This document shows, piece by piece, positions 1 through 10,813 of a stretch of 64,000 nucleotides of DNA (the stretch's first letter is position 1; each line of letters opens with the position of its first letter). Below the pieces are notes generated by a model. It saw only the letters and a program-made list of their open reading frames with translations. It was not told where the DNA came from and did not search any database. The stretch spans positions 1 to 64,000 of the IMG/VR virus record IMGVR_UViG_3300030329_003436, one strand, 5' to 3'. Origin of the DNA: a virus. Both the position numbers and the translations under genes were made by a program.

Positions 1-72
1 TTCAGCGAATTGTATGATGACATGGACAAGGCCATAGACAAATTTTTTGAAATTAAAAAGAGATTGAGATGA
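1..72 (+). CDS. 3' end of an unidentified gene (partial)
   Basis: The left edge cuts a reading frame that runs 23 codons to a TGA overlapping the next ATG as ATGA. The visible tail is charged (ending in EIKKRLR) and probably helical. Too little remains to identify it. Its position just before an exonuclease and a headless DnaE fragment makes the missing N-terminal (PHP plus palm) half of the polymerase a reasonable guess, but nothing in these 23 residues proves that. Confidence 0.6.
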   Translation, partial: FSELYDDMDKAIDKFFEIKKRLR

Positions 73-752
73 ACTATAAAGACATAATTGTTTTCGACTT
101 TGAAACTGGGTCAAGAAACCCTCACAAAACACAACCAGTGCAGATTGCTGCCGTTGCTATACACGGTAGAAAGCTAACGATCCAACCCGGAGGTTATTTT
201 GAAAGCTTAATACGTCCAGAGCTGGATGATGAAAAGGCTATAGAGATGGGGGTTGATCCAATAGAAGACGAAGCACTTGCTGTCAACGGCAAGACAAGAG
301 AAGAACTGGCTAAAGCCCCTTCTGCCAAAACGGTATGGAAAAAGTTTGCTAACTTTGTAAACAAATACAACTGGAAAAAGACACCTTACTTTGCCCCTAT
401 ACCTGCTGGTTATAACATTATAGGGTTTGATCTTCCTATCGTTCAGAGGTTGTGCGAGCAGCACGGCCCTGTTGACAAAAAGACCGGAAAGCAGACCCTG
501 TTTAATAAAATCCACAAGATTGACATGTTGGATACCGTTTGGATGTGGATGGAAAACAATCCAGATATTAAATCCTTAAGCATGGATTCAATGAGAGACC
601 TGTTGGGTATGAGCAAAGAGAACGCTCACGATGCCATGCAAGATGTTAAAGACACGGCAAATCTAATGATTGCGTTTATGAAACTGCATCGTCGTATAGC
701 TCCCAAGGTAAAATTTGAAAAGGCGTTCGCAGATGGAAACATCCACCTTTGA
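69..752 (+). CDS. DnaQ-like DEDDh 3'-5' exonuclease
   Basis: A 227-residue protein of the DEDDh exonuclease superfamily, which removes nucleotides from 3' ends and often proofreads for a replicative polymerase. Exo I is D10-F-E12-T. Exo II is GYNIIGFD with the acidic residue at D121. Exo III is H187-D-A-x-x-D192, so all catalytic acids and the general-base histidine are present. The length is normal for a stand-alone epsilon-type subunit. The gene overlaps the preceding stop by ATGA and overlaps the downstream polymerase gene, so the two are translationally coupled and probably work as one replicase. An RNase T/oligoribonuclease-like role cannot be excluded, but the polymerase neighbour favours proofreading. 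Confidence 0.88.
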   Translation: MNYKDIIVFDFETGSRNPHKTQPVQIAAVAIHGRKLTIQPGGYFESLIRPELDDEKAIEMGVDPIEDEALAVNGKTREELAKAPSAKTVWKKFANFVNKYNWKKTPYFAPIPAGYNIIGFDLPIVQRLCEQHGPVDKKTGKQTLFNKIHKIDMLDTVWMWMENNPDIKSLSMDSMRDLLGMSKENAHDAMQDVKDTANLMIAFMKLHRRIAPKVKFEKAFADGNIHL

Positions 753-2307
753 TCCTATTGAAATAGACTTCAACAACCAAGATGCTTGGGACTTAATCTG
801 TGACGGAAAAACCAAGGGGGTTTTCCAGCTAGAAAGTAGTTTGGGTAGAGCTTGGTCAAAAAGAGTCAAACCAAGAAACATAGAAGACTTGGCCGCTCTT
901 GTTTCTATTATTAGACCCGGATGTCTTAAGGCGATTGTAGACGGAAAGTCTATGACGCAGCATTACGTAGACCGAAAAAACGGGTCAGAAGAAATAGTCT
1001 ATATTCACGACTCTCTTGAGCCAATACTTAAAAATACACAAGGGGTTTTGGTTTATCAAGAACAGTCTATGGAGATAGCCCAAAAGATAGCTGGATTCAA
1101 TCTCCAGCAAGCTGATGACTTAAGGAAGGCTATCGGTAAGAAAAAAGCCGATTTGATGGCCAAGATTAAAAAGAGGTTTGTACAAGGTGCCATAGATGCG
1201 GCCATTGTTTCTAAAGAAGCAGCAGAAGAGATATTCTCATGGATCGAGAAGTCCTCTCGTTACGCTTTTAATAAGTCCCATGCTGTTAGCTACGCTATTT
1301 GTGGTTATTGGAGCGCTTACGCTAAGTCTCATCATCCATTGGAGTTTTACTGTAACTACCTATATTACGCACATGGTAAGCCAGACCCTCAAGAAGAAAT
1401 AAGAGAGCTTGTACGTGACGCAAAGTCTGTCGGTGTTTCAATACACCCTCCTTCATTAAAAAGCCTTAATGAGACGACCAGTATAATAGATGAGAAAATT
1501 CACTTCGGACTTTCTGATCTGAAGACTATCGGCAAGAAACAGATAGATAAATTCAAAGATATTTTGCCAGAAGCCGAAAATTTAATCGGCAAAAAAATTC
1601 ACGAGATGTCTTGGTACGAGACGCTGGTTTCAATAGGAGATCTACTGTACTCCCCTTTGGCGATAGCCATGATATCCACGGGTATGTTTTCGCACACAAA
1701 ACTGTCTAGGCTGAAAATGCTAGACGACTTTGATACATGGCAAAAACTAACGTCGAAAGAGGTTGTCTGGATCAAAGAAAACTATAAGAACCATGACAAC
1801 ATTCTTGACCTCCTAAAAGCAGCGTCTCCTGTAAAGAAGGAAGGGGGAGCGGCTCATAACAGCAAAAGAACAGAGGTTATACTTGACTTGGTTCTGCATT
1901 TGGAAAACCCACCGTCCTCTCTTGAAGACGACCCTCGGTGGGTAATAGGTACAGAAGAAAACTATCTTGGGGTGGCGGTAACATACTCAAAGATAGAATC
2001 TAGTGACATCAGCATGTCTGACACCACCTGTAGAGATTGTCTAGAAGGCAAGAAAGGGAAGATGAAAATAGCTGTAACCCTCAACGCCATAAGAAAATGG
2101 ACAACAAAAGGCGGTAAAAACCCCGGCCAAGAAATGGCCTTTCTCTCAGTAGAAGATAACACCGGAGAGCTTGATAATGTGGCAATATTTAGCGAATCAT
2201 GGAAAGAATATAAAAATATACTATATGAGGGAAATAATGTCCTATTATTTTGTAATGCCTCTAAGAATAGGGACGGTTTTGTAGTCGATAAAGTTGTTGA
2301 GATTTGA
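733..2307 (+). CDS. DNA polymerase III alpha (DnaE-type), C-terminal half only
   Basis: A 524-residue protein that aligns by eye with bacterial DnaE from just after the palm to the C-terminus. VFQLES (30-35) followed by a DLAAL..IIRPG stretch matches the fingers. VYQEQSMEIAQ (from 107) and DDLRKAIGKKK match the conserved DnaE motifs, as does FNKSHAVSYA (from 179). The end (about 430-524) looks like the DnaE OB fold. The PHP domain and the three catalytic palm aspartates lie upstream of this region in normal DnaE and are absent here, so the protein cannot polymerise alone. ATG at 733 is preferred to an in-frame TTG at 715. It overlaps the exonuclease gene by 20 bases. A split polymerase is the likeliest explanation; a truncated accessory factor is the alternative. 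Confidence 0.85.
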   Translation: METSTFDPIEIDFNNQDAWDLICDGKTKGVFQLESSLGRAWSKRVKPRNIEDLAALVSIIRPGCLKAIVDGKSMTQHYVDRKNGSEEIVYIHDSLEPILKNTQGVLVYQEQSMEIAQKIAGFNLQQADDLRKAIGKKKADLMAKIKKRFVQGAIDAAIVSKEAAEEIFSWIEKSSRYAFNKSHAVSYAICGYWSAYAKSHHPLEFYCNYLYYAHGKPDPQEEIRELVRDAKSVGVSIHPPSLKSLNETTSIIDEKIHFGLSDLKTIGKKQIDKFKDILPEAENLIGKKIHEMSWYETLVSIGDLLYSPLAIAMISTGMFSHTKLSRLKMLDDFDTWQKLTSKEVVWIKENYKNHDNILDLLKAASPVKKEGGAAHNSKRTEVILDLVLHLENPPSSLEDDPRWVIGTEENYLGVAVTYSKIESSDISMSDTTCRDCLEGKKGKMKIAVTLNAIRKWTTKGGKNPGQEMAFLSVEDNTGELDNVAIFSESWKEYKNILYEGNNVLLFCNASKNRDGFVVDKVVEI

Positions 2308-2336
2308 TTGCAAAACATTGACTCTTTATGTATATT
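2308..2336 (+). promoter_or_regulatory. Candidate sigma70-type promoter before ssb
   Basis: A TTGCAA hexamer (2308-2313), a 17-base spacer and TATATT (2331-2336) lie in one of the few real gaps of the plus-strand operon, about 40 bases before the SSB start. The -35 box matches the consensus at 4 of 6 bases and the -10 box at 5 of 6. It would let SSB and the sigma-like gene be transcribed separately from the polymerase. Confidence 0.4.
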
Positions 2337-2378
2337 AGATGTAGGAACTTTACAACACCCTGCACTGAAGGATCACGG

Positions 2379-2753
2379 ATGTCTGCCAGCTCAATTTCCA
2401 ACTACTGTCGTTTTATCGGCAGGCTTGTAAGAGACCCGAAACTCATAAAACTAGAAAATACCGAGCTTGTTACCTTTACCCTTGCAATAACAGAGTATCG
2501 CAAAGAAAAAGGTGGCGAAAAGAAGAAGACAACAAATTACTTTGATTTTGAAGCTTGGGATAGCGGAGCCTCTACCATCAATAGGTATTGCAAGCAGGGA
2601 GATATTGTAGATGTTGTAACCTCCGCAAGGAATAATCAATGGACAGACAAGGAAGGCAAACAGAAGTTTTCGACTCGTTTTAGGGTTAAAGAATTCAAGC
2701 TCTTCAACCCACCCCCGTCAGATAGAGAAAATTCTCAACAAGAAGATGAGTGA
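2379..2753 (+). CDS. ssb: Single-stranded DNA-binding protein
   Basis: A 124-residue OB-fold protein that coats single-stranded DNA at the fork. It begins with the SSB-like strand SNYCRFIGRLVRDPKL. It then has a TFTLAI strand, a charged loop, FDFEAWD, and CKQGDIVDV (the usual KGD.V element of bacterial SSB), and ends in an acidic tail (SQQEDE). That tail resembles the protein-recruiting tip of SSB but lacks the classic final Pro-Phe. ATG at 2379 is chosen because GAAGGA precedes it and the SSB fold starts there; an in-frame ATG at 2328 would add 17 unrelated residues. It overlaps the next gene by 8 bases. Confidence 0.85.
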   Translation: MSASSISNYCRFIGRLVRDPKLIKLENTELVTFTLAITEYRKEKGGEKKKTTNYFDFEAWDSGASTINRYCKQGDIVDVVTSARNNQWTDKEGKQKFSTRFRVKEFKLFNPPPSDRENSQQEDE

Positions 2754-3261
2754 TGAATTAGACAGAGTAACTCAAAAAAATCAAGAAGAGCTTGAAGAAC
2801 AACTGATCCGTAATAATTACGGGCTGGTAGTTTCTCAAGCTCTTTTATTTTTTAAAGACACGTCAAAACACTATACACTAGAAGATTGTATTCAGGTTGG
2901 CTTAGTAGGGTTATTAAAATCTATAAGAAAACATGATCCTAAAAAGTCTAAGTTTCCAGTGTACGCAACGGTGTGTATAAAAAATGCAATATCCAGCTTT
3001 GTAAAAAAACATAGTAAAAAGAACAAGGTTGTGTTTGATACAAAAGCACTTAATAGCTCATTAAATGGCAGACACTATCTTGACAAAGATAATATTGCAA
3101 GCTATCTGACTAAACTGAATGAGCAGGAATTGTTCATAATAACCAAGAAGATGGAAAACTACACTAACTCTGAGATATGCGAGATACTGTCTTGCACTAG
3201 AAACGCCTTAAAGAATAAAATTACAGATATAATTAATAAGCTTGAAGAACATAACAAATGA
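2746..3261 (+). CDS. Sigma-70-family-like transcription factor
   Basis: A 171-residue protein with the outline of a small sigma factor. Residues about 45-95 (LEDCIQVGLVGLLKSIRKHD, then a PVYATVCIKNAISSFVKKHSK stretch) match sigma region 2, including the core-binding helix and the Y/W-A-x-x-x-I-x-x-x-I pattern of the -10 reading helix. The C-terminus (about 130-165) is a helix-turn-helix like region 4 (SEICEILSCTRNALKNKI). It would redirect host RNA polymerase, most likely to late phage promoters; the shared TGGTGTATAATA boxes before late genes are candidates. It overlaps ssb and, by ATGA, the first glycosyltransferase gene. Confidence 0.7.
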   Translation: MSDELDRVTQKNQEELEEQLIRNNYGLVVSQALLFFKDTSKHYTLEDCIQVGLVGLLKSIRKHDPKKSKFPVYATVCIKNAISSFVKKHSKKNKVVFDTKALNSSLNGRHYLDKDNIASYLTKLNEQELFIITKKMENYTNSEICEILSCTRNALKNKITDIINKLEEHNK

Positions 3262-4895
3262 GAAAAAAGAGAGTTCTATTCTGCTCAGAGGCTACCTACT
3301 TAAACACTGGCTATGCAACATACGCCAGAGAGGTTTTAAGCAGGCTACATGCTTCTGGAAAATATGAAATTGCTGAATTTGCTAGCTATGGAAAAGATGG
3401 CGACCCTCGCAATAATGACATTCTGTGGAAATTCTACCCCAACCAGCCTCATGATAGTGATTTAGCAGGCAACCAAGAATACGCTTCAGTTCCAACCAAT
3501 CAGTTTGGAGAATGGAGATTTGAAAACGTTCTTTTGGATTTTCAGCCAGATTTCGTTTGTGACATAAGAGATTTCTGGATGATAGATTACCAAGAAAGGT
3601 CTCCTTTTAGACGGTTGTTCAATTGGGTTATAATGCCAACCGTAGACGCCTCACCACAAAACGAACAGTGGATAGCTACGTATTCTAATGCAGATGCCGT
3701 TTTTAGTTATTCGGACTGGGGAGGTTCGGTATTAAAGAATGAGTCCAATGGCAAGGTCAATTACTTAGGCACTGCATCTCCTTCTGCTCACGCTATCTAT
3801 AGTCCAGTTGAAGACAAGCAAGCCCATAAAGAAAGAATGGGGTTCGACGCAGACACTCTTATACTTGGAACAGTGATGCGCAATCAAAGAAGAAAGCTGT
3901 TCCCAGACCTGTTTGAAGCCTTTAGAAAATTCTTAGATATGTACGACAAGAACGACGTGTTTTTGTATTGTCATACTAGTTATCCAGATTTGGGATGGGA
4001 TCTGCCTAAGCTGATAAATCGTTACGGGCTATCAAGCAAAATCCTAGTGACATATTCTTGCCCACAATGCAATTACGCCTTTCCTATGTATTTTTGTGAC
4101 GCCAAAACAAAATGCCCTCGCTGCGGAGGAAAGTCTGCTGGCCTATCCAACGTACAAAATGGTGTTGAATATGATTTTCTATCTGAAATATTTAATACCT
4201 TTGATTTGTATATACAGTATGCAAACAGTGAGGGTTTTGGGATGCCGCAGGTTGAAGCCGCCGCCTGTGGAGTACCTGTTGCTAGCGTAGATTACTCGGC
4301 AATGAGTAGCGTAGTGAGAAAGCTTGAGGGCTACCCAATCAAACCCCAAGCCCTATATAACGAACTAGAAACCGGCTGCAATAGAGCAGTTCCAAATAAC
4401 GATGCAGCCGCCAAGGTTATATATGATTTTTTCAATTTGTCTGAAGAAGAACGAAAAGAAAAAAGCAAGCAAACAAGGTCTGCTTTTGAAAAGCACTACC
4501 AGTGGGATGCGACCGCCAAGATGTGGTCTGATTATTTTGACTCTGTAGAAATTAGACCTCGTGAAGAAACATGGCTATCACCACCAAGAATACATAAGTT
4601 TCCTAGAGACGTTCCCGAACATCTTGACACTAGACAATTAGCCCAGTGGCTCATAGTCAACGTCCTTGGCGAACCAGAACGATTGAACTCTTATTTTGAA
4701 TCTAGATTAATGAGAGATCTTAACTGGGGTATACACATCCAAGGAACTGGAGAAATGTATCTGAACGAAGATTCTTATGCTTTTGTAAAACCGGACTATC
4801 AAAAATTTACAATTGAAGAGGCTTTCAATATGATGGCTGGTCTTTGTGCTAGAAGAAATGAATGGGAAAAAACAAGGGTGGAAATTGTAAGATGA
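3258..4895 (+). CDS. GT4-like glycosyltransferase with internal zinc ribbon
   Basis: A 545-residue GT-B glycosyltransferase. The N-terminal half opens with LFCSEATYLNTGYATYAREVL, a Rossmann start with a GT4-like acceptor loop. The donor half contains SEGFGMPQVEAAACGVPVAS, the GT4 E-x7-E signature, followed by an AMSSVV stretch. Between the two lies an unusual insert, C268-P-Q-C271 ... C286-P-R-C289-G-G, a four-cysteine zinc ribbon not found in ordinary GT4 enzymes. A C-terminal extension of about 120 residues (from about 430) has no recognised fold. It is the first gene of the glycan block and overlaps its neighbours by ATGA on both sides. The sugar donor and acceptor cannot be read from sequence. 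Confidence 0.8.
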   Translation: MRKKRVLFCSEATYLNTGYATYAREVLSRLHASGKYEIAEFASYGKDGDPRNNDILWKFYPNQPHDSDLAGNQEYASVPTNQFGEWRFENVLLDFQPDFVCDIRDFWMIDYQERSPFRRLFNWVIMPTVDASPQNEQWIATYSNADAVFSYSDWGGSVLKNESNGKVNYLGTASPSAHAIYSPVEDKQAHKERMGFDADTLILGTVMRNQRRKLFPDLFEAFRKFLDMYDKNDVFLYCHTSYPDLGWDLPKLINRYGLSSKILVTYSCPQCNYAFPMYFCDAKTKCPRCGGKSAGLSNVQNGVEYDFLSEIFNTFDLYIQYANSEGFGMPQVEAAACGVPVASVDYSAMSSVVRKLEGYPIKPQALYNELETGCNRAVPNNDAAAKVIYDFFNLSEEERKEKSKQTRSAFEKHYQWDATAKMWSDYFDSVEIRPREETWLSPPRIHKFPRDVPEHLDTRQLAQWLIVNVLGEPERLNSYFESRLMRDLNWGIHIQGTGEMYLNEDSYAFVKPDYQKFTIEEAFNMMAGLCARRNEWEKTRVEIVR

Positions 4896-6016
4896 AGGTT
4901 TTATACATAGGTCATTATAGAGAAGGTACGGGCTGGGGAAGAGCCGCTATAGACTACATACTGTCTATGGATGCCGCTGGCATCGAGGTTGTGCCTAGAG
5001 CCGTAAAACTTAACGACAGACAGCCGGAACTTCCTCGAAGGCTGTTGGAGTTAGAAAATCAGGAATCTTCCGGGTGCGATGTTTGCATACAGCATGTTCT
5101 TCCTCACTTAATGGATTTTCACCCAAAGTTCAAAAAGAACATAGCCTTGTATGCTACCGAAACAAGTAATTTCAAATATTCAACTTGGCCTAGAAAAATA
5201 AACCTGATGGACGAGGCTTGGGTTATCAATAATCAAATGGTTGAAGCTTCTGTTAATAGCGGGATCACAGTGCCTATAAAGGTAATTCCGCACGCGACAG
5301 ACTTTGAGAAATTTACACAGAGACATAAAAAGCTTGACCTTCCAATACCAGACGACAACTTTATATTTTATACGGTTGGCGAATTCAACAAGAGGAAAAA
5401 CTTAAGAGCTTTTGTTACGGCTTTTCATTTAGAGTTTGAGAGAAATGAACCGGTTTCAATTTTAATAAAGACAAACAAGGCTGGTCTAAGCGCAGACCAA
5501 TGCGCCGAACAAGTTCAGAGTCTTTGTAACGAAATTAAACAAGGGTTAAAACTGTACCCATCTTCCAATGACTACAAAGAGGATTTTATAATAACTGACT
5601 ATTTGTCCGAAAAAGATATAGAAAGGGTTCATCAGTCTTGTGACTGTTTTGTTATGCCAAGCCATGGGGAAGCATGGTGCATCCCTGCGTTTGACGCGAT
5701 GGGGTTTGGAAACACTCCTATATGCACTAATACTGGCGGTATGGCCGATTTTTTGCGGAAAAGCGCCAACATAGGAGCGGGCGGTGTTTTGGTGGATGCA
5801 AGATTAGAACCCGTCACAGGAGCATTAGATACGCTATCTGATATCTTCACAGGTAAGGAAGAGTGGGCGTCTATTGATATACAAAAACTTAGAAAAGCCA
5901 TGAGAGACATGTACGAGTCTGACAGAACAGACATGAAAACTCACGGTCTGGAACGAGCTATGAAATATTCCCATAGGGAGATTGGCAATGTAATAAAAGA
6001 GGCACTAAATGCTTAG
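4892..6016 (+). CDS. GT4 family glycosyltransferase
   Basis: A 374-residue GT-B enzyme. It begins KVLYIGHYREGTGWGRAAID, the nucleotide-fold start with the GxG loop of GT4. It continues through IPHATDFEKF and a TVGEFNKRKN donor-domain start to the HGEAWCIPAFDAMGFGNTP signature and GGMADFL. ATG at 4892 is preferred because the fold starts there and it makes the ATGA overlap usual in this operon; an in-frame ATG at 4862 would lie inside the previous gene. The next gene starts 8 bases before its stop. Confidence 0.82.
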   Translation: MKVLYIGHYREGTGWGRAAIDYILSMDAAGIEVVPRAVKLNDRQPELPRRLLELENQESSGCDVCIQHVLPHLMDFHPKFKKNIALYATETSNFKYSTWPRKINLMDEAWVINNQMVEASVNSGITVPIKVIPHATDFEKFTQRHKKLDLPIPDDNFIFYTVGEFNKRKNLRAFVTAFHLEFERNEPVSILIKTNKAGLSADQCAEQVQSLCNEIKQGLKLYPSSNDYKEDFIITDYLSEKDIERVHQSCDCFVMPSHGEAWCIPAFDAMGFGNTPICTNTGGMADFLRKSANIGAGGVLVDARLEPVTGALDTLSDIFTGKEEWASIDIQKLRKAMRDMYESDRTDMKTHGLERAMKYSHREIGNVIKEALNA

Positions 6017-7019
6017 TCCGGTATCCTCCATAACCAGAGCGTCTGCTAGAAAAATAAATGACCCTCTGAATATACTGACCTTTCCTACACACGAAAGGTA
6101 CGAAACGCTTTTATGTAAAACGGGGCATAATTTCTATGCCTATAGAGCAGAAGGTATAAAAGATTGGAATACGAACAATGCCGCTATTCCAGAAAACTAT
6201 ACTCTTTTAGATCCCACGCTGGGAGATAAACAAATACCGGCCTATCTGGATTTTGATCTAGTTTTGTCTCAAAACAAGTTTGGTCAATTCCAACTGGCCG
6301 AACCAATAGCGAAACGGTTTCATCTTCCTTTGGTTAGTCTTGAGCATACGCTTCCAGTCCCCTATTGGCCTCCCGAAGTTTTAGAGCAAACCAGAACAAT
6401 GCAGGGTGACATCAACGTATTCATTTCAAAATATAGTATTGGCGCTTGGGGGTGGGATGCGCCAAATACTAGTGTCATTACTCATGGGGTAGATACAACA
6501 TTATTTAAGCCAGCAGAAAAAGAAAGAGAGAACCATGCTCTGTCAGTGGTAAATGATTGGATCAACAGGGATTGGTGCTGCGGTTTTAACATATGGCAAA
6601 ACGTATCAAAAAAATATCCAACAAGAGTGATAGGCGACACGCCGGGATTATCGAAACCAGCATCCAGTATAGAGGAATTGGTGGATGCCTACCAAACCAG
6701 TAGAATATTTCTGAACACTTCTACAATATCACCTATTCCAACTTCTTTACTTGAAGCTATGGCTTGCGGATGTGCTGTTGTGTCTACAGCTACCTGTATG
6801 ATACCAGAAGTAGTAGAGCATGGAGTTAACGGCTTTTTAGGGGAGACGGAAGAAGAATTAGAAGAATATTTAGTAGAACTTCTGAATGATGAGGATTTGG
6901 CCACGAAATTAGGAAATGAGGCTAGAAAGACTATAGAAAGCAGATTTTCAGAAGATCAATTTGTTGGCAGATGGGAACATCTGCTTTATGAAGCGTCAAA
7001 AGTATGTTTTAGAGGTTAA
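6009..7019 (+). CDS. GT4 family glycosyltransferase
   Basis: A 336-residue GT-B protein. ITHGVDTTLFKP marks the domain linker, and SPIPTSLLEAMACGCAVVS with IPEVVEHGVNGFLGET is the textbook GT4 donor-binding end. The N-terminal half is short and divergent (VSLEHTLPVPYWPPE), so acceptor recognition probably differs from its two upstream GT4 neighbours. The C-terminus (RKTIESRFSEDQFVGRWEHL) is the usual closing helix. Confidence 0.82.
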   Translation: MLSPVSSITRASARKINDPLNILTFPTHERYETLLCKTGHNFYAYRAEGIKDWNTNNAAIPENYTLLDPTLGDKQIPAYLDFDLVLSQNKFGQFQLAEPIAKRFHLPLVSLEHTLPVPYWPPEVLEQTRTMQGDINVFISKYSIGAWGWDAPNTSVITHGVDTTLFKPAEKERENHALSVVNDWINRDWCCGFNIWQNVSKKYPTRVIGDTPGLSKPASSIEELVDAYQTSRIFLNTSTISPIPTSLLEAMACGCAVVSTATCMIPEVVEHGVNGFLGETEEELEEYLVELLNDEDLATKLGNEARKTIESRFSEDQFVGRWEHLLYEASKVCFRG

Positions 7020-7020
7020 G

Positions 7021-7485
7021 ATGAAAGTAAGCATAACTGTAGGTTCACCGTTCCGAAAAAATGGTTATCTAAATATAGACCCTATAACAAAACCGGATGG
7101 TCTAGATGTAGACATTAGAAATTTAGATGACGTAGTAGACGACGCAGAGTGTACCGAATTTATAGCCGAAGATGTTCTCGATTACCTTGAAAGCTCTGAA
7201 GCTGATAAGGTATTAAATCACTGGATAGGCAAGCTTAGAAGAGGTGGTAAGATTGTGATAGGAGGCACGGACGCATACGAAGCCTCTAAAATGTTTTATC
7301 AGCAAAAAATTGATTTAGAAGAGTTTAACAAATTAGTTCACGGGGCATTTTCTCAGCCGTGGGATGTAAGGTTACACAATGTAACGTTAGAATACATGCA
7401 ATCAAAGCTAGAAAATGCGGGATTAAAAGTAACAAAAAAAAGACTTGATGGTTATCGGATAGTCATAGAAGGAGAAAGAGAGTGA
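7021..7485 (+). CDS. Methyltransferase-like protein lacking a clear SAM-binding loop
   Basis: A 154-residue protein resembling the small SAM-dependent methyltransferases of polysaccharide clusters: GYLNIDP, DVDIRNLDDV, an AEDVLDYLES stretch where that family has the 'hvLEHl' element, then IGKLRRGGKIVIGG and a final LENAGLKV. The glycine-rich motif I that holds SAM is replaced by SITVGSPFRKNGY, so activity is doubtful. ATG at 7021 is chosen over an in-frame ATG at 6961, because the preceding gene ends at 7019 and the family fold starts here. The next gene begins at an overlapping GTGA. Confidence 0.55.
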   Translation: MKVSITVGSPFRKNGYLNIDPITKPDGLDVDIRNLDDVVDDAECTEFIAEDVLDYLESSEADKVLNHWIGKLRRGGKIVIGGTDAYEASKMFYQQKIDLEEFNKLVHGAFSQPWDVRLHNVTLEYMQSKLENAGLKVTKKRLDGYRIVIEGERE

Positions 7486-8291
7486 CATTTCAACAAAACC
7501 AGCCGCAGGGCTTGACAACATCATGTAAAGACTGTGTATTCTCAGAAAAAGAAGAAAAAACACAAACCGGATGCTCTCTTAATAGAATTGAAAAATTCAA
7601 AGATAGGGGTGTGTTTGTTGTAGAAGCAGAAGATCTCGAAGAAAACGAATTCTATGTCATCGAATCTTGGTGCGCAGCATATAGAGAAGAGCCATGGAAA
7701 GAGGGTGTGGACGATATCCACACCAAGGTTAGAGAAGAATACCAAGTAAGAGTTGGCTATCTTGTCATTGCAGACGAGGAGTCCGCGACTGACTACTCTA
7801 GTAAACTGCAAAAAACCCTAGATTCTATTTTGGCTCAATCTATTTCGCCCAGCTACATGCTTATGATTAACAAAATTCCAGACGAGCATGTAAATATTAT
7901 ACAATCTACGGTAACAGTAATGGATGGCGTAGATTTTGAATATAAAATTACCTCTATGTATGAAAAAGGCGCAACAGACGATGAAGCCATAGACGAAGTT
8001 TTTAATAAGGTTAAAAACGGATTTTACATGGTGGTCAAGGTCGGTCATGAATTGAGACCAGATCTTACGAAAAAATTAAATCAGTCCATAAATGAAGAAC
8101 TTCATAAAGTTGCTTACATAGATGGCTACGACGGCGTTAATGGAAGAACTGCTCAGGCAGCTATACATAAACACTTAAACGGTAATGTTGTTAAACCGTT
8201 AAAAGAAAAACTGAAAGAAGTCTCCAGTTTTGAAGAAAAGTCTAGCCTCACCTATACATGGGAAGACATTGACCAGCTATGCATAGAGTAA
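7482..8291 (+). CDS. Cysteine-containing protein with GT2-like region, function unknown
   Basis: A 269-residue protein starting at GTG in a GTGA overlap. The first 65 residues carry C14-x2-C17, C31 and C61, a plausible metal site (SCKDCVFSE ... TGCSLNR ... WCAAYRE). The middle (VRVGYLVIADEES, KLQKTLDSILAQSISPSYML) recalls the start of GT2 glycosyltransferases (Q...P...I), but no DxD motif follows, so catalysis is not supported. It overlaps a genuine GT2 gene by 13 bases and may act with it. No firm function is proposed. Confidence 0.6.
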   Translation: MTFQQNQPQGLTTSCKDCVFSEKEEKTQTGCSLNRIEKFKDRGVFVVEAEDLEENEFYVIESWCAAYREEPWKEGVDDIHTKVREEYQVRVGYLVIADEESATDYSSKLQKTLDSILAQSISPSYMLMINKIPDEHVNIIQSTVTVMDGVDFEYKITSMYEKGATDDEAIDEVFNKVKNGFYMVVKVGHELRPDLTKKLNQSINEELHKVAYIDGYDGVNGRTAQAAIHKHLNGNVVKPLKEKLKEVSSFEEKSSLTYTWEDIDQLCIE

Positions 8292-9055
8292 CAATCCTTA
8301 TAGCCTGCTATAACGACGAAGACTATATAGATAGTGCCATAGAAAGTGCCTTTAACCAAGATTACCAAGGCCCAATGACTATTTGTGTTATTGATGATGG
8401 TTCTACAGACAGGTCTCTGGAGATAGCCAAAGGCTATTTTAGCAAACCGCTTTCTGACAGCTACCGTGATAATGAAGTATGGTTTCAGGAAGACAGGGGA
8501 AGGTTTGGAAACACCAAATATGTTGTAATGACAAAGCCCAATGGTGGCCCCAGCGATGCAAGAAACTGGGGTATAGGCTATGCTTGGCCTCATACAGATA
8601 TCTATGCAGTACTCGACGCAGACGACCAGATGTACGAGAACAAAATATCTACATGTGAAAAAGTTATGTCTGAAGATATGGAAACGGTAGGAGTGGTATA
8701 TGCTGATTATGATACACACCATATCGACACAGACAAAATAATAAGAGAATTTAAAGAACCTTACAGCAGAAAAAGGCTAATAGAAGAATGCGTTGTTCAT
8801 AGCGGTTCTTTAATCAACAAAAAGGCTCTTGACAACACGCATGAAGACACGGGGTACTATGATTTTACCATGAGAACTTGCGAGGACTACGATCTGTGGA
8901 TGAGAATAAGTGAGAAGTTTATGCTGGTTCATGTTCCTCAGTCGCTAACGCTTGTTCGGGTAACTGGAGACAATTCCAGTTTTGTAGTTAATCAAGAAGT
9001 CTGGCAAAGAAACTGGTCTAGAGTAATGGAAAAAATGCAAGACAGGCTTCAATGA
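8279..9055 (+). CDS. GT2 family glycosyltransferase
   Basis: A 258-residue GT-A enzyme of family 2. Its start VTILIACYNDEDYIDSAIES, then VIDDGSTDRSLEIAK, is the canonical nucleotide-binding half. NGGPSDARNWGI and VLDADDQM provide the acceptor loop and the metal-binding DxD-type motif. CEDYDLWMRISEKF is the E/D-D base region usual in GT2. It has no membrane segment, so it is probably a soluble enzyme acting at the inner face of the membrane. Donor unknown. Confidence 0.88.
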   Translation: MHRVTILIACYNDEDYIDSAIESAFNQDYQGPMTICVIDDGSTDRSLEIAKGYFSKPLSDSYRDNEVWFQEDRGRFGNTKYVVMTKPNGGPSDARNWGIGYAWPHTDIYAVLDADDQMYENKISTCEKVMSEDMETVGVVYADYDTHHIDTDKIIREFKEPYSRKRLIEECVVHSGSLINKKALDNTHEDTGYYDFTMRTCEDYDLWMRISEKFMLVHVPQSLTLVRVTGDNSSFVVNQEVWQRNWSRVMEKMQDRLQ

Positions 9056-9768
9056 TAGTAAAAAATAGATTTGTAACTACAGCCCAGAAGAAGCTTTCTC
9101 CGGGTCAGGCTCAGGAAAGCCCTCTTACTGTAATCATCCCTATAGCGGGAGTTGGTCACAGAATGAAGTCTTATGGGCCTAAATGCCTTCTCCCGGCAAA
9201 CAAAAAAGAAAGCATAATACAAAAAAGCATATCTACAGTAAAAAAAGTTTTTCCATATGCAGAGATCATAGTGGTTGTTGGCTTTGAGGCCGACAAAGTA
9301 ATCAAATGCATACCGGAAGACGTTAGAATAGTAGAGAACCAATTTTATGAAACTACCAATGTGGTAGAAAGTTTGAGACTAGCATTAAACTGCTCAATCA
9401 ACACAAACATTTTAATATTGTATGGCGACTTAATTTATAACACACACACCATAAGCGATATATCAAAAGATGAATCCTGCATCGTTATAGACTCAAAAAA
9501 TCGTTTCAAGGCAGAAGAAGTTGGTGTAACGGTAGTCGAAGGATCTGTTACCAATTTTGCATACGGACTTCCAACTAAATGGTCTCACATTATATACATG
9601 GCCGAAAGAGAGTCTAGATTTTTTAAGAAGCTTTGTGGTGACAGAAAAAGAAACAAGATGTACCCCTTTGAGATATTTAATTATATGATATCCAAGGGGT
9701 TTAGTTTTAAAGCAGTAGAACCTAGCGGAATGAATATCCGAGAAATAGATTCTATGAAAGATTTGTAG
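9052..9768 (+). CDS. Nucleotidyltransferase (sugar- or choline-phosphate type)
   Basis: A 238-residue protein with the NTP-transferase signature IAGVGHRMKSYGPKCLLP (the G-x-G-x-R-M...P-K loop), IIVVVGFEADKV, and TTNVVESLRLAL, the segment resembling LicC-type cytidylyltransferases. ILYGDLIY stands at the metal-binding position. It would activate a phosphorylated sugar, phosphocholine or similar group to a CDP or NDP donor for the transferases around it. It overlaps the GT2 gene by ATGA. Confidence 0.75.
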   Translation: MIVKNRFVTTAQKKLSPGQAQESPLTVIIPIAGVGHRMKSYGPKCLLPANKKESIIQKSISTVKKVFPYAEIIVVVGFEADKVIKCIPEDVRIVENQFYETTNVVESLRLALNCSINTNILILYGDLIYNTHTISDISKDESCIVIDSKNRFKAEEVGVTVVEGSVTNFAYGLPTKWSHIIYMAERESRFFKKLCGDRKRNKMYPFEIFNYMISKGFSFKAVEPSGMNIREIDSMKDL

Positions 9769-9769
9769 A

Positions 9770-10813
9770 ATGAAAATACTTATATCTAGCGATGGCCCCC
9801 ACGCACATTACTATATTCGACTAGGCTGGGCTAGAGCCTTAGAAGCCTGCGGTCACGATGTTTATATTTGGGATATAGAGAGTATTCCAACGTTTGATAT
9901 GTTTGATGACTTTGAGCCAGACATATTTATGGGGCAGACGTACAATCTCAATAAGTCCGTTTATAAATGCATAAAGGAAAGACCACATTTAAAGGTGGTT
10001 ATGCGAGGTTCTGACTGGGGCGATATACAAAAAGAAATCGACAAAGAAAAATATCCAATACTAACAGCAAGAGATGATGAAATAAAGCTGGTAGAACAGC
10101 TCAAAAAAGAGACCCAAAAACCCGACTTTATCCACAACCACTACCATGACAATTGGATAACCAAGACGCATAATAAGTGGAACGACATAGGTGTTAGGCC
10201 AGTATCATTGATTCATGCAGCAGACGTGTTTGAGTACTGGGGCGGTCAAATCGTAGAGCATCTCAAAAGTGACGTATCATTTATCGGGGGGTATTGGCCA
10301 TACAAAGCTAAGTGTCTGGATAAATACATGCTCAGGCTATGCCATCCTGTTGGAAAGTACAATATAAAGATATGGGGTTCCAACTGGCCGGTTGTTCAGT
10401 ACATGGGCAGGATTGCTGGCGATCAAGCTAGGCATGTTTTTCGTTCTGCAACAGTATGTCCTAATGTTAGTGAGCCTCACTCTCAAGATTTTGGCTACGA
10501 CATAATTGAAAGACCGTTCAAGGTGTTAATGAGTGGTGGCTTCTGCATTTCTGATTATGTTGAATCCATGTCAAAAGATGTATTTAATAATGACGAGATA
10601 ATTTTTGCGAAAACACCAGAAGAGTTTGAAACCCTTATTAAGTATTATGCAGCTCACCCGGAAGAAAGAGAGCCTTATATACAGAGGGGTCAAAAGTGCG
10701 TTCTGGAAAAACACACCTACTTCCACAGAATGGCAACAATGTTTCATGAACTAGGGTTGGAGAATGAAGCCGTTAAAACAATTCAGGTTCTGGAAGGGAT
10801 GATTTCTGCATGA
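9770..10813 (+). CDS. CgeB-like glycosyltransferase
   Basis: A 347-residue GT-B protein. KILISSDGPHAHYYIRLGWA and an ALEACGHDVYIWD stretch form the first fold. The C-terminal half (KIWGSNWPVVQYM, CPNVSEPHSQDFGYDIIERP, LMSGGFCISDYVE, FAKTPEEFETLIKYY, then an ERGQKCV-type closing helix) matches the CgeB/Glyco_trans_1_2 family known from spore-coat and phage glycosylation loci. It overlaps the following SDR gene by ATGA. Confidence 0.78.
   Translation: MKILISSDGPHAHYYIRLGWARALEACGHDVYIWDIESIPTFDMFDDFEPDIFMGQTYNLNKSVYKCIKERPHLKVVMRGSDWGDIQKEIDKEKYPILTARDDEIKLVEQLKKETQKPDFIHNHYHDNWITKTHNKWNDIGVRPVSLIHAADVFEYWGGQIVEHLKSDVSFIGGYWPYKAKCLDKYMLRLCHPVGKYNIKIWGSNWPVVQYMGRIAGDQARHVFRSATVCPNVSEPHSQDFGYDIIERPFKVLMSGGFCISDYVESMSKDVFNNDEIIFAKTPEEFETLIKYYAAHPEEREPYIQRGQKCVLEKHTYFHRMATMFHELGLENEAVKTIQVLEGMISA

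Follow-up and report, generated by a model that had tools for sequence, protein, structure and literature searches.

DnaE is normally one long chain, in which the palm and the fingers jointly make the active site. The window analysed here, a stretch of 64,000 nucleotides corresponding to positions 1 to 64,000 of a 97,582-base IMG/VR virus record (IMGVR_UViG_3300030329_003436), begins at the cut end of that record, and its left edge carries a DnaE-like gene of about half the usual extent, directly preceded by an exonuclease gene. The locus therefore raises two questions: where the catalytic half of this polymerase is encoded, and what role the exonuclease plays in front of the remaining half. 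The features concerned are as follows.

1..72, plus strand: 3' end of a 71-aa ORF (whole in contig L003:6080-6295)
69..752, plus strand: DEDDh 3'-5' exonuclease, 227 aa, likely proofreading subunit (RNase_T, E 3.5e-15; PHROG 192)
733..2307, plus strand: C-half of a DnaE-type polymerase, 524 aa, with fingers, HhH region and OB (PF17657, TIGR00594)
2328..2753, plus strand: SSB, the next gene of the replication operon (PF00436, E 1.7e-17)

A palm-less polymerase gene and its upstream counterpart

The C-half matches DNA_pol3_finger (PF17657, E 1.3e-47) with no match to the palm (PF07733), and its structure model, described below, includes the OB part. All five DEDDh residues (D10, E12, D121, H187 and D192) are present in the exonuclease, whose gene overlaps that of the C-half by 20 nt. 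The original prediction, of a DnaE-like gene that starts past the palm aspartates with fingers and OB intact and follows an intact DEDDh exonuclease in an overlapping operon, is thus borne out. ATG 733 is a likelier start of the C-half than TTG 715, because the conserved sequence starts near ATG 733. A sigma-like factor gene follows SSB in the window, and at least four glycosyltransferase-like genes lie downstream of the replication operon (3258-10813). The whole 97,582-base record has no palm gene, because it is cut at the left edge of the window; its last 33.6 kb are also without the stretch upstream of the exonuclease.

An IMG/VR scan with the C-half retrieved L003, part of a 20-kb contig that reaches 6.2 kb further upstream than the window and is 99.8% identical to it over 10.3 kb (22 mismatches; L003 position = window position + 6223). 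The N-half, as seen in L003 and not in the window's own record, is a protein of 639 aa (L003:4174-6093) whose gene ends ~130 bases left of the window. It comprises a PHP domain (PF02811, E 1e-40) and a palm (PF07733, E 6.3e-71) with all three catalytic aspartates. The operon in L003 runs from a DnaB-like helicase through a TOPRIM primase, a dNMP kinase, a 187-aa ORF and a PD-(D/E)XK nuclease to the N-half (4174-6093), followed by the 71-aa ORF (6080-6295), the exonuclease (6292-6975), the C-half (6956-8530), SSB and the sigma-like factor. Hence the upstream search for PHP and palm sequences proposed at the outset succeeded, and the suggested order of N-half, exonuclease and C-half is found in L003 and in all relatives with both halves. 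The small ORF between N-half and exonuclease, which has no Pfam or PHROG match, is an addition not visible from the window. Successive genes overlap by 14 nt (N-half and 71-aa ORF), 4 nt (71-aa ORF and exonuclease) and 20 nt (exonuclease and C-half), which suggests translational coupling; such coupling would probably yield matched amounts of the proteins.

The cut lies in the linker between palm and fingers

The two halves together account for a complete DnaE. On TIGR00594 (length 1022) the N-half covers 2-574 and the C-half 580-1020; against Taq DnaE the profile alignments span 4-629 and 641-956, respectively, plus part of the OB region. AlphaFold2 models, in which each half was folded separately from 37-row alignments (rows L420, L423 and L434 left out), reached a mean pLDDT of 91.5 for the N-half and 91.4 for the C-half, indicating confident folds on their own. 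The N-half model aligns with E. coli alpha over residues 4-579 (Z 44.1, rmsd 3.6 over 570), and residues 1-524 of the C-half model align with residues 569-1073 of alpha, OB included (Z 22.4, rmsd 9.0 over 457, the latter value probably being an effect of domain placement). Taken together, the profile and model alignments place the cut in the palm/fingers linker, past the third catalytic aspartate, with all domains kept. At the cut, a conserved helix is followed by just a few more N-half residues, and the conserved fingers likewise begin a few residues into the C-half; a short leader with a CxC motif precedes the fingers in 23 of 37 C-halves and is absent from that of the window. The span from the third-aspartate motif to the FQLE motif, 46-55 residues in bacterial DnaE, amounts to 32-104 residues (median 68) in the split proteins when both ends are summed. 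With PHP and a palm bearing three aspartates in the N-half, and fingers and OB in the C-half, the protein has the make-up of DnaE, except that its catalytic domains are distributed over two genes in 186/186 loci listed. Since DnaE splits are already known, we regard it as a variant of DnaE and not as a non-member.

The split is the rule in an uncultured phage lineage

IMG/VR was scanned with the N-half, the C-half, the exonuclease and divergent members, keeping the best 80 matches per scan. At least 186 distinct loci with both halves were collected; all 186 are split, and in all 186 the exonuclease lies between the halves. The scan anchored on the exonuclease gave a split polymerase in 78 of the 79 matches listed, the other being a contig without the N-half. 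The halves are separated by 1-4 complete ORFs, and frequent insertion of further genes makes their spacing variable. Two insertions deserve mention: an SIS-domain amidotransferase-like protein, metabolic and unrelated, lies between the polymerase halves at L068:10214-11875, and at L151:2832-5033 there are three ORFs between the halves that appear, by eye, nucleotide-sugar enzyme-like. As the clade was judged among the matches listed, an intact sister lineage may have escaped.

In a tree of 71 rows (quick method, SH-aLRT support, no bootstrap), the 43 split rows form one clade with an SH-aLRT of 100 on a stem of 0.77 changes/site. For the sampled loci, this branching most likely reflects a single ancient split, in the ancestor shared by a large uncultured phage group. 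Among 50,697 phage records there was no match to the exonuclease and nothing similar enough to count as a clade member, the best long N-half matches being 33-36% identical. The original prediction expected this gene order to be uncommon, and none of the cultured phages examined has it, yet in the present uncultured lineage it is standard. Intact polymerases were found in the three top-ranking unannotated fecal records that were inspected. A Myxococcales contig, L227, also scored as split; given its two overlapping frames and the lack of an exonuclease, a frameshift is the probable cause. The same split occurs in seven MAG contigs labelled Flavobacteriales, SAR202, Chitinophagia, Alphaproteobacteria and Lokiarchaeota, probably because phage contigs ended up in cellular bins. 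Among the split operons with such labels, L182 and L183 (Lokiarchaeota-labelled MAG) and L179 (SAR202, Chloroflexota MAG) are probably binned viruses and may hint at hosts.

Several features are consistent with the split protein being the replicase. Neither family A (PF00476) nor family B (PF00136) polymerases were found in 19 relatives (records of 20-230 kb, most of them incomplete contigs), each of which has one palm ORF and one fingers ORF, apart from one record with two sets. That record, G007 (206,326 bases, holding L067), carries its split-polymerase sets at ~52-56 kb and 198-202 kb; the contig may have been joined from two phages, or the duplication may be real. The palm triad is kept in 37/37 representatives. 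No bacterial-type sliding clamp was found in 14 long relatives. In a mirror-tree analysis, N-half and C-half distances correlate at 0.60 (permuted maximum 0.21), a value that carries no weight for binding because genes sharing a genome correlate regardless.

The intervening exonuclease is a candidate proofreading subunit

From its place beside the polymerase genes, the intervening exonuclease is most likely a 3'-5' proofreading subunit, an analogue of epsilon that would bind the PHP/palm half. The DEDDh residues are kept in 39 of 40 representatives; the one exception is a row that begins beyond the positions of the first two. Of 37 representatives, 28 have an intact PHP metal site, and the other nine have lost it but still carry the exonuclease. 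Because it persists where the PHP site is lost, the DEDDh enzyme would be the constant editing activity of the operon, and we infer that it edits for this split polymerase. L139, L147, L170, L177, L323, L327, L328, L331 and L421 retain their palm and exonuclease residues, but little is left of their nine PHP metal-ligand positions.

In a stronger form of this assignment, the C-family replicase would be a heterotrimer in which the exonuclease, as an indispensable third subunit, bridges the palm half and the fingers half. We hold this to be rather unlikely. If it were true, the gene order would be fixed in every member because the exonuclease bridges the halves, no polymerase could assemble without its proofreader, and proofreading and catalysis would be coupled by assembly.

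Conversely, the exonuclease could be a mere neighbour, a passenger of the insertion that cut the gene, with any editing left to the PHP domain. Proofreading by a PHP domain is established for Mtb DnaE1 (PMC5636811), the PHP metal site is intact in the 28 representatives mentioned above, and the exonuclease is distant from solved proofreaders, its best match being a PolC-type chain (E 1.1e-8). Yet a passenger would hardly be expected between the halves in every one of the 186 loci listed, with its active site kept even in the nine representatives whose PHP site is lost, and PHROG 192, to which it belongs, is labelled 'DNA polymerase exonuclease subunit'. We therefore judge the passenger reading unlikely, and return to the exonuclease as the probable proofreader.

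The halves are most likely reassembled non-covalently

A different alternative is covalent rejoining of the halves, with a split intein at the cut acting on the protein or an intron on the RNA. A few relatives do carry split inteins at other places in this polymerase. In L149:1576-4340 and L163:2346-4311 the palm is broken by an apparent split intein between GRG and SAAGC, with a weak Hint match in the first piece, and in L149 a 291-aa ORF with weak TnsA-like/DUF7487 matches lies between the intein pieces. In L066:8786-11781 (L067 alike) a split intein sits in the fingers of the C-half, directly before SHSSAYGF, with a TIGR01445 match above cut-off; the ORF between its pieces, of 309 aa, weakly resembles Vsr endonuclease. 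At the palm/fingers cut, however, the termini leave just a few residues beyond the conserved helix and ahead of the fingers, neither half has a match to an intein family, Rfam introns are absent from L003, L009 and L066, and complete genes stand between the halves. Covalent rejoining is accordingly very improbable.

That the C-half is an orphan lent to a palm half of the host, as originally considered, is less probable still: the window alone has no palm half, but L003 has one upstream with an intact triad, as does every relative with a contig that is long enough, so that the phage lineage encodes its own and the lending is not needed. An assembly or frameshift artefact, including the frameshift to an upstream palm that the original prediction named as refuting it, might be feared for metagenomic contigs and a window cut at its edge, but is refuted, like a chance arrangement, by the same order in at least 186 distinct, diverged loci with 1-4 complete ORFs between the halves, and has a negligible probability.

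Altogether, we consider it highly probable that the locus encodes an anciently split C-family replicase, non-covalently reassembled, with the exonuclease between its halves as proofreader. Under this model, the gene would have been cut at the palm/fingers linker in the common ancestor of a large phage group, and the N-half (PHP and palm) and the C-half (fingers, HhH and OB) would most likely dock non-covalently, rebuilding the active site. A mobile cassette inserted at the linker is the likely cause of the cut, and the exonuclease gene may have arrived then or later. An endonuclease VII-like gene lies between the exonuclease and the C-half in L149; this gene and the split inteins with their nuclease-like ORFs mark the locus as a target of mobile endonucleases. 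No tandem repeats were found in L003.

Comparison with known polymerases

The present system resembles bacterial DnaE with epsilon (DnaQ) in the order of PHP, palm, fingers, HhH and OB, in its aspartates and in having a separate DEDDh exonuclease, but the single bacterial chain is here two, with the exonuclease gene inside the palm/fingers gap. The same palm/fingers cut is seen in Mycobacterium phage Cuke, whose gp86 and gp87, both annotated DnaE, overlap by 4 nt; unlike the present lineage, Cuke is cultured and plaque-forming and has no exonuclease between the two genes. In the 71-row tree Cuke is nested among intact actinophage polymerases, which argues that its cut is an independent event and that the cut arose at least twice among the phages sampled. 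In another cultured phage, Gordonia phage Madi, DnaE is split between PHP and palm into adjacent genes (gp64/gp65, L263:5001-8392).

The cut in cyanobacterial DnaE lies further along the chain than the present one. There, too, DnaE comes from two genes, but intein halves splice the protein back together (PMC3919608), and no intein is found at the cut here. Jumbo phages of group 2.2 have a split minimal PolIII-alpha, encoded by distant genes and with a family B partner, according to Iyer et al. 2021 (PMC7824862). That system likewise has a C-family catalytic module in two proteins, but its genes are far apart, it lacks PHP and other PolIII domains, and its cut falls within the catalytic module (PMC7824862), whereas here one operon holds both halves, PHP and OB are present and PF00136 is absent from the 19 relatives.

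The T4-like gp43A/gp43B of Aeromonas phages 25 and 44RR are also a phage replicase in two polypeptides, and the phage 25 pair was shown to co-purify and to be active as a DNA polymerase (PMC2988022). It is by analogy with this pair that we argue for reassembly of the present halves, whose physical association and polymerase activity would follow suit. The T4-like enzymes differ in that they belong to family B, have either an endonuclease gene or untranslated sequence at the split, and occur in a few phages and not lineage-wide; they have no exonuclease inside the split, which is a feature of the present lineage.

In the literature searched, which covers few subscription papers, there was no report of this arrangement or lineage. 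The lineage-wide cut suggests that an active site shared by two proteins, with the palm on one and the fingers on the other, is viable over long evolutionary times, and it offers structural work and engineering a natural split C-family replicase with a candidate proofreader in the same operon. It also cautions against throwing out half-size 'DNA polymerase' genes of metagenomic phages as fragments. Against that literature, the C-family replicase and the split DnaE are known; what is new is a lineage with a likely proofreader encoded between the halves.
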